Assembly: GCA_027485145.1 (NCBI GenBank)
Contig: JAIXRO010000027.1
Coordinates: forward strand, 19,743 to 83,742
Direction: 5' to 3'
DNA: 64,000 nt
DNA from: Hyphomonadaceae bacterium
GTDB taxonomy: Bacteria > Pseudomonadota > Alphaproteobacteria > Caulobacterales > Hyphomonadaceae
A program made the position numbers and the translations under genes. Every line of letters starts with the position of its first letter. Position 1 is the first letter of the stretch. Below, piece after piece: positions 33,125 through 42,447 of the stretch. The notes under the pieces were generated by a model. The model had not been told where the DNA came from. It ran no database searches and saw only the letters and a list, made by a program, of their open reading frames with translations.

Positions 33125-34222
<1,098 letters not shown>

Positions 34223-34428
34223 GACGCCTTTGCCTCCAGATTAACCAAAGTATCGCGGCGACTGGCCCCGCCAGTCCGATACCGGTCTGTTTGTGTTTGC
34301 GGCGCGATTCCACCAACCTTCGGCCGGATTCCGGAATGCCGCTTCAGCCCGGCGGATTAGCCGCTTTCCTTAAGCAAAAACAGGCACAAAAATCGCTTCG
34401 CATCTTAAATGGCTGACTTGGCCAGACT

Positions 34429-34448
34429 GCCGGGCTATCTTGCCCGGC
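34429..34448 (+). repeat. Perfect hairpin GCCGGGC-TATCTT-GCCCGGC in the leader of the TIR gene
   Basis: 7-bp perfect arms, 6-nt loop. Confidence 0.6.
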
Positions 34449-34477
34449 TTAACCGTTTCAGAAGGGTACACGCACCC

Positions 34478-35416
34478 ATGAGTTATGACGTCTTCCTTGT
34501 GTCCGCGATCGAGGACCGGGACACCGCCAAACTGATTGCGCGGCGCCTTCGCTCGCTCAAATTCCGCGTCTGGCTGGACCAGAAGCAGGAAGATGAGACC
34601 TTCGATGCCAAGGATGCGCGTGACGCGACCGGATCTCCGTCCATGCTGGTGCTCTGGTCCGCCGCGGCTGTCGGAAGCGACTGGGTGCGTGCCGCTGCCT
34701 CGATTGGCCATTCCCGTCCCGGCACGCTGATCGAGGCGGCGCTCGACAAGACGGTGCCGTACGAGCCGTTCACCGCCCACAAGCGCTATGCGCTGGCCGG
34801 CATGACGTCCCGCAACACACCGCTGGCCTTCGTCGATCTCATCGAAGAACTCGCAGAGCGTCAGGGCCGCACCGGCCTGCGCGACTGGATCAGCTACGGC
34901 GCGCAGGACGAAGAACAGCGGATCGCGTGGCTTGCGGCACACCCGGCCGATCCTCTGGCGCTCGACGCCCAGAAGAAGCGTGAGAAGGAACTCGGCGTGA
35001 AGCCCGCCCCGGCCCGCGAAGCCATCGGCGCAGCGGCGCTTGCGGCGGCCGCGATGCGGACAAGCCCCCCGCCGCCACCTGCGATGGCGGGTCCGCCGCG
35101 TCCAGCCGCCACAAGTCCGCTCGCCTCCAACGGCGCGATTGCCTCGGCAACCCTGGCCGAGGAAGCGCGGGGGTTCAGCACGTTGATGGGGGTTGGCGTT
35201 GCCATCGGCGCGATGCTGTTCATGGCGTGGGTCTTCCGCTCACAGCCTGCGCCGCCCGCGATTCGCGGTCTTCCGGCAATCGCGAACGCACAGATGCCGG
35301 TAACCTGTCCGGCCGGCACCGTGCCGCGCTCCATGATCCGGGTGCTCGAACCGGGCGAGATCATTGACGATACCCAGCCCGTCATCGTGGACGACACCTC
35401 CGCCGATCCGGGCTGA
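34478..35416 (+). CDS. TIR-like domain protein with Pro-rich linker and a C-terminal TM segment
   Basis: MSYDVFLVSAIEDRDTAKLIARRLRSLKFRVWLDQ (TIR box1/2-like); TSPPPPPAMAGPP linker; TM LMGVGVAIGAMLFMAWVF. Confidence 0.8.
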   Translation: MSYDVFLVSAIEDRDTAKLIARRLRSLKFRVWLDQKQEDETFDAKDARDATGSPSMLVLWSAAAVGSDWVRAAASIGHSRPGTLIEAALDKTVPYEPFTAHKRYALAGMTSRNTPLAFVDLIEELAERQGRTGLRDWISYGAQDEEQRIAWLAAHPADPLALDAQKKREKELGVKPAPAREAIGAAALAAAAMRTSPPPPPAMAGPPRPAATSPLASNGAIASATLAEEARGFSTLMGVGVAIGAMLFMAWVFRSQPAPPAIRGLPAIANAQMPVTCPAGTVPRSMIRVLEPGEIIDDTQPVIVDDTSADPG

Positions 35417-35440
35417 TCTGTCTGACGTTGCCAAAAACAA

Positions 35441-35470
35441 AAAAAGCCGCCGGATATCCGGCGGCTTTTT
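35441..35470. terminator. Bidirectional Rho-independent terminator
   Basis: AAAAAGCCGCCGGATATCCGGCGGCTTTTT, perfect palindrome between convergent genes. Confidence 0.95.
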
Positions 35471-35488
35471 CTTGTTTGGGCCGGGAGC

Positions 35489-41757: not shown

Positions 41758-42447
41758 TTACTGCGCGCCCTTTTCGGCAAGCAGGGCGTCGATCTGCTTC
41801 GAGAAGCCTTCCGGCGTGCGATAGTCGCCTTCGAAGTTGCGCACTTTGCCGTCGAGCACGAAAGTCGGCGTGCCGGCGACCTGGAATTGTTCGGCAGACT
41901 GGTAAACGGCGGCCAGCTCGTCCCGGATCTCGGGGTTTTCCATGCAGGCGTCGAAGGCTTCGTCTGTCTCGATTCCGTGCCGTTTCGCGATCGTTTTCAG
42001 GGTGTTACCTAGCGCGCCGACCTGCGCGGCCTGAACGATCCCTTCCTGGTTCTCAAACAGGTCGTCGAGCACCGCGAAGAACTTGTCGTCACCAGCGCAG
42101 CGGGCGACCACGTAAGCGGCAACGTCCACGGTTCCGTGGATCGGGAATTCGCGGAATACGAACCGGACTTTGCCGGTCGACACGTACTTTTCCTCAATCG
42201 TAGGCAGGACGCTGTCATGGAAGTACTTGCACGCGGGGCAGGTTGGCGAGGCATATTCGATCAGCGTAATCGGCGCATCCGGATCACCTTTGACGTGGCC
42301 GAGCTCGCCCGCTTGCGTGGTCGCTGACGCACCTGCACTTGCGGCAGGTGCGTTGCTGCTGTCGCCCTTGGCCGCGCCGCAAGCAACGAGTGCCAGGGCG
42401 GAAACAGCCGCAAGGGCGAAACGCCGGGAAAGTGATGTCATGGTCAT
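41758..42447 (-). CDS. DsbA family thiol:disulfide oxidoreductase, predicted lipoprotein
   Basis: ITLIEYASPTCPACKYFHDSVLPTIEEKYV; CPAC active site; lipobox ALVAC. Confidence 0.94.
   Translation of the reverse strand: MTMTSLSRRFALAAVSALALVACGAAKGDSSNAPAASAGASATTQAGELGHVKGDPDAPITLIEYASPTCPACKYFHDSVLPTIEEKYVSTGKVRFVFREFPIHGTVDVAAYVVARCAGDDKFFAVLDDLFENQEGIVQAAQVGALGNTLKTIAKRHGIETDEAFDACMENPEIRDELAAVYQSAEQFQVAGTPTFVLDGKVRNFEGDYRTPEGFSKQIDALLAEKGAQ

Follow-up and report, generated by a model that had tools for sequence, protein, structure and literature searches.

A membrane-anchored TIR protein lacking the catalytic glutamate, encoded head-to-head with ychF in Hyphomonas and related genera

What is a lone TIR gene doing among the housekeeping genes of a Hyphomonadaceae bacterium? 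Bacterial TIR domains discussed in the literature cited below are mostly NADases or makers of NAD signals in phage defence. The window analysed here, a stretch of 64,000 nucleotides from contig JAIXRO010000027.1 (assembly GCA_027485145.1), carries a TIR gene among neighbors identified by NCBIfam as yajC, secD, secF, ychF, ATP synthase B, B' and A, and smc. An earlier note, made from the sequence alone, had described this housekeeping context, and the NCBIfam assignments bear it out. The literature library searched contains no paper on a Hyphomonas TIR, and an NCBIfam search of the complete protein returned no family.

The gene product is anchored in the membrane and bears a TIR domain of the immune type; the features of the gene are collected in Table 1. 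ORF calls reproduce the reading frame, coordinates and strand first given for it. The frame stays open further 5', to an ATG at 34409; this start was rejected, as the in-frame upstream codons are unconserved among orthologues and the Met at 34478 is conserved. The sequence AGAAGG lies immediately 5' of the selected start. In the AlphaFold model of the whole protein, confidence is high for residues 1-170 and for the transmembrane (TM) helix, and the linker and tail are disordered. Helices are predicted in the extension at residues 134-139, 145-154 and 159-172 of a model built for the TIR part only. The Ala/Pro-rich linker varies in length among orthologues. A single hydrophobic helix follows, in agreement with the one TM helix of the earlier note; its best 19-mer has a mean KD of 2.36 across orthologues, and Arg254 at its end is near-invariant. 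The tail beyond it, put at about 70 residues originally, is shorter, at about 57.

Table 1. Features of the TIR gene and its flanks, with positions counted from the first nucleotide of the window.
Feature	Position	Strand	Basis or remark
ychF, head-to-head neighbor	33125..34222	-	NCBIfam TIGR00092, 496.7 bits
Intergenic region, 255 bp, between divergent ychF and TIR genes	34223..34477	.	
TIR-TM gene, 312 aa	34478..35416	+	ORF; start from orthologue alignment
TIR domain, residues 1-130	34478..34867	+	Pfam TIR_2 residues 5-90; AlphaFold; Foldseek TIR matches
SDWVRAAA motif, residues 67-74; W69, A73 = W+4	34676..34699	+	Orthologue/TIR alignment
Helical extension, residues 131-175, GRxxLxxW...W..AHPxDPLA	34868..35002	+	R131, W151, D158, P159 conserved
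Ala/Pro-rich linker, residues 176-231	35003..35170	+	pLDDT <50 over 194-226
Single transmembrane helix, about residues 232-254	35171..35242	+	Hydrophobicity, AlphaFold and orthologue alignment
C-terminal tail, residues 256-312, CPxGxVPxxL...GPIIDDT motif, invariant Cys277	35243..35413	+	Orthologue alignment
Bidirectional intrinsic-terminator-like hairpin	35439..35472	.	Common to TIR gene and convergent ATP synthase operon

The N-terminal region had been read as a TIR fold by eye, and both profile and structure searches agree. Pfam model TIR_2 matches with E=4.4e-7 (30.9 bits against a curated cutoff of 28), and the same profile finds 48 of 49 orthologues at E<=0.01. By sequence alone the protein is too distant from TIRs of known structure: against PDB sequences, neither phmmer with this one protein as query nor a profile search rose above chance-level matches (AbTir, E 0.22), and a fold search was therefore needed. 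The TIR-only AlphaFold model, in whose building distant TIRs were included, has a pLDDT of 93.3 and a pTM of 0.88; pLDDT over the TIR domain is 84-97 per block. The predicted fold is flavodoxin-like, and in Foldseek against PDB the best 50 matches to this model consist entirely of TIR proteins and complexes that contain them (TMt <=0.80), SARM1, MyD88, MAL, SPARTA and AbTir among them. Foldseek against viral structures gave distant TIR and unrelated matches only. By profile and predicted fold alike, the domain is a member of the TIR superfamily.

The residue that defines NADase TIRs, the catalytic Glu four positions after a Trp (W+4), is missing. Relative to the NADases SARM1, AbTir and TIR-STING, the protein keeps the fold and the Trp, but the Glu is absent in all orthologues. 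Ala73 stands at exactly the Glu position, since Glu-bearing relatives from the same order read, for example, SDWVRAEA. The Ala at W+4 that had been pointed out in this one protein thus extends to a family: residue 73 is acidic in none of 69 orthologues spanning six genera (Ala in 48, Ile in 10, Met in 8, Leu in 3). The comparison set consists of 22 other TIRs of the order, the query-locus copy (L061) and the protein of genome G209 having been left out, and W+4 is acidic in every one of them, Glu in 21 and Asp in one. With non-acidic residues in 69/69 on one side and Glu or Asp in 22/22 on the other, the difference is beyond chance. Loss of the catalytic Glu is a family trait.

Other pocket positions are altered with it. 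In box 1, for which the global TIR consensus is YDVFISY (PMC7075850), Ser8 (22/22 other TIRs) is replaced by Val or Ala in the orthologues, and Tyr9 (21/22) by Ser, Thr, Ala or Asn. In the BB loop, Leu37 becomes mostly Gln or Arg and Gly39 mostly Asp or His. Absence of the Glu is not proof of inactivity, because its frequency among TIRs does not strictly track activity (PMC7075850) and because an E-to-A mutant of TirC recovered its activity in the presence of a crowding agent (PMC13142454). Two acids are specific to the family, D46 immediately following the BB loop and E96 in the loop past beta-D, each position being acidic in 0/22 other TIRs; either might substitute for the lost Glu. Bacterial TIR-STING completes its active site with an Asp that the DD loop of the adjacent protomer supplies (PMC9402430).

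The Glu-bearing TIR_2 proteins of the order, such as a TIR-TM-OmpA-Sel1 protein, share with this family the TIR domain followed by the GRxxL...W...DPLA extension, in which R131, W151, D158 and P159 are kept on both sides, and some have a TM helix. They differ in keeping Glu or Asp at W+4, the box-1 Ser-Tyr pair and, mostly, the BB-loop Gly. The remaining parts of these proteins are unlike.

A full-length orthologue occurs in 42 of 42 Hyphomonas genomes. The gene also turns up in additional genera of Hyphomonadaceae and, in a single case (G209), in a different family belonging to the same order; among 385 genomes sampled from the class, none beyond that order has it at E<=1e-15. Searches of phage, plasmid and viral-contig collections gave no match to the gene. 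The orthologues form one clade (support 97/89). Several relatives and sister lineages lack the gene, and mapping its presence on the ychF tree requires about 9 changes, at least 7 of them forced, a patchiness that may reflect repeated loss or transfer to the same site. For 14 close pairs, dN/dS, taken as the quotient of the two means, rises from about 0.04 in the TIR domain through 0.05 (helical part) and 0.07 (linker) to 0.13 for the TM helix plus tail. The gene is under strong purifying selection and, because the ratio is low in every region, is functional. The absences from sister lineages and the vanished catalytic residue would fit a TIR gene in decay, en route to loss and without current function, but a gene intact in all 42 Hyphomonas genomes, with such ratios and with an invariant tail motif and Cys, makes this highly improbable.

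The genomic surroundings of the gene are constant on one side only. The gene ychF is adjacent and divergent in 69/69 orthologues and also in G209; it adjoins the TIR gene in 0/19 loci of other TIRs from the order. The downstream neighbor is atpF in part of Hyphomonas, a different gene in the remaining Hyphomonas, and pth-rplY in other genera, and the genes beyond ychF differ as well. The earlier note's placement of the gene between ychF and the F0 ATP synthase operon therefore describes the window correctly, while across the genus only its ychF half is constant. The TIR gene and ychF together make up a conserved divergent pair, to which the F0 operon is incidental. Nor does the gene have a terminator of its own, as had been proposed, since the terminator-like hairpin downstream is bidirectional and can serve the convergent ATP synthase operon too. 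Relatives without the TIR gene show an empty site with rplY-pth-ychF uninterrupted, the pth-ychF gap being 2-144 bp in most, from which it follows that the TIR gene sits in the pth-ychF junction, in the opposite direction. In a single genus, TIR-less members (L135-L137 and L140, g3 genomes) have ychF without its pth neighbor and with unrelated genes upstream, which indicates an independent rearrangement of the ychF region in that genus.

So constant a partner raises the question of whether the protein is a membrane-tied regulator of YchF, binding or localizing this redox-linked ATPase and so connecting envelope redox state to control of translation and stress. Persistence of the head-to-head arrangement while the outer neighbors change, extending to the divergent G209 protein, speaks for it, as do the description of YchF in NCBIfam as redox-regulated and the single invariant Cys of the tail. 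The E. coli YchF is an interaction partner of thioredoxin A, forms a crosslink with KatG and influences how well cells resist oxidative stress (PMC8138138). The adjacency may, however, simply go back to a single insertion between pth and ychF in an ancestor, passed on vertically, and YchF is universal while the TIR protein is not. The ychF/pth divergence ratio carries no sign of co-evolution with TIR presence (0.39 without the TIR gene, 0.46 with it; p=0.07). A conserved intergenic block, GAAAAACAGGC...TCGCC, was considered as a joint regulator of the TIR gene and ychF and rejected; a similar block precedes ychF in a TIR-less relative (L130), and for that reason the block is probably the ychF promoter. 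On balance we consider a dedicated YchF regulator unlikely.

The homolog in G209 (L109:1517-3142, 542 aa), from another family of the order, is sister to all orthologues (support 100/99). It shares with them a Glu-less TIR domain, a linker, a TM helix and the head-to-head arrangement with ychF, and differs in carrying two PG_binding_1 domains where they have the short Cys tail. Contamination was rejected as its origin, as its ychF branches outside Hyphomonadaceae, albeit on a long, poorly placed branch. Judging from this one genome, the pairing of TIR gene and ychF may be old, and transfer is also compatible. The PG_binding_1 tail suggests that an envelope-facing tail is either ancestral or interchangeable.

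By analogy with that protein, in which PG_binding_1 domains follow the TM helix, an N-in/C-out topology with a periplasmic tail is likely. The charges that flank the helix argue the other way: averaged over orthologues they are acidic on the N side, and Arg lies on the C side, the opposite of what the positive-inside rule predicts for N-in/C-out. The tail itself carries a CPxG motif that does not vary among orthologues, and it closes with a GPIIDDT-like sequence. Exactly one Cys occurs in 40 of 49 orthologues, and C277 or its equivalent is invariant. A Pfam search of the tail gave no convincing family, and a second tail copy, sought in 61 genomes, was not found; the idea of a mobile or shared domain was dropped, the tail having been found in orthologues only. 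A lone conserved Cys outside the membrane would most simply be explained as a site of inter-chain disulfide formation or of modification. About 6 kb from the gene, the window encodes a DsbA-like thiol oxidoreductase (41758-42447, minus strand), with an SPTCPACK motif seen by eye; it is possibly relevant to the tail cysteine, and probably a coincidence.

Could the protein nevertheless serve in phage defence, as a sensor or decoy TIR or as an NADase with a relocated acid, working by itself or together with a partner encoded elsewhere? The fold is common to SPARTA and other TIR effectors, D46 and E96 offer candidate acids, and outside the genus the gene is patchy, with empty sites. Against this stand a genus-core gene kept always at one locus under strong purifying selection, and several pocket positions lost together. 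A PADLOC search of the protein gave no convincing match (best E 0.0033, 14.9 bits, 35 residues), the phage, plasmid and viral-contig collections gave none, and no defence genes adjoin. The adjacent genes are all housekeeping, with no ThsA, CD-NTase or short pAgo beside the TIR gene, which upholds the earlier observation that there is no Thoeris- or CBASS-type partner. We judge a defence role quite improbable.

The reading that we favor, as reasonably probable, is that of a membrane-tethered, resident TIR scaffold or sensor without NADase activity, rather than an abortive-infection effector, because the gene is genus-core, is under purifying selection, is not seen on mobile elements and has several altered pocket positions. 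A scaffold or sensor role had been suggested in the earlier note; the same four lines of evidence make it the best, if still tentative, reading. The TIR domain and helical extension would derive from the common TIR modules of the order, with the NADase site lost. The disordered Pro/Ala linker would join this part to the one TM helix and the short, probably periplasmic tail. Through its invariant Cys, the tail could dimerize by a putative disulfide, or be modified in the periplasm, and the TIR domains so clustered might then bind a cytoplasmic client. YchF as that client, or as a regulated partner, is speculative. The most specific version, a genus-core, membrane-spanning, non-enzymatic TIR receptor whose periplasmic Cys tail senses envelope redox and whose TIR domain has the ribosome-associated ATPase YchF under its direct control, would put a TIR to use in resident stress signaling in place of NAD-based immunity; it strikes us as rather doubtful.

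Such a scaffold would have parallels in animals. Endosomal TLRs, TIRAP and MyD88 share the TIR fold, and the catalytic Glu is rare in them (<10%) according to a TIR survey (PMC7075850). TLRs are also single-span membrane proteins, but with the domain order reversed, ectodomain first, and these animal scaffold TIRs have no kinship to the present family past the TIR fold. If the scaffold or sensor reading is right, a bacterial TIR has been domesticated for a non-immune, probably non-enzymatic job beside a universal translation and stress gene. The family would then offer a defined system for bacterial scaffold TIRs, with a single gene in an aquatic genus, relatives with empty sites and Glu-bearing natural controls. 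It is also a possible lead on the regulation of YchF, and interest would be greater if YchF proves to be the client.

Other TIR architectures occur alongside this one. An 801-aa protein (L119:4284-6686, genome G047) combines a Glu-bearing TIR domain with an OmpA-type domain and Sel1 repeats, a probable cell-wall-binding part. The genome of the window itself encodes two more. One (L060, G000:C132:11710-11961) joins, in one 464-aa frame, a TIR-like domain having Asp rather than Glu at W+4 to a putative ParA-type P-loop ATPase recognized from sequence. The other (L058, G000:C120:2460-2810), on the contig of the window and outside the window, is 391 aa long and reads as a Glu-bearing TIR domain at the C terminus, preceded by TM segments and, at the N terminus, by a TIR-like region that is degenerate.
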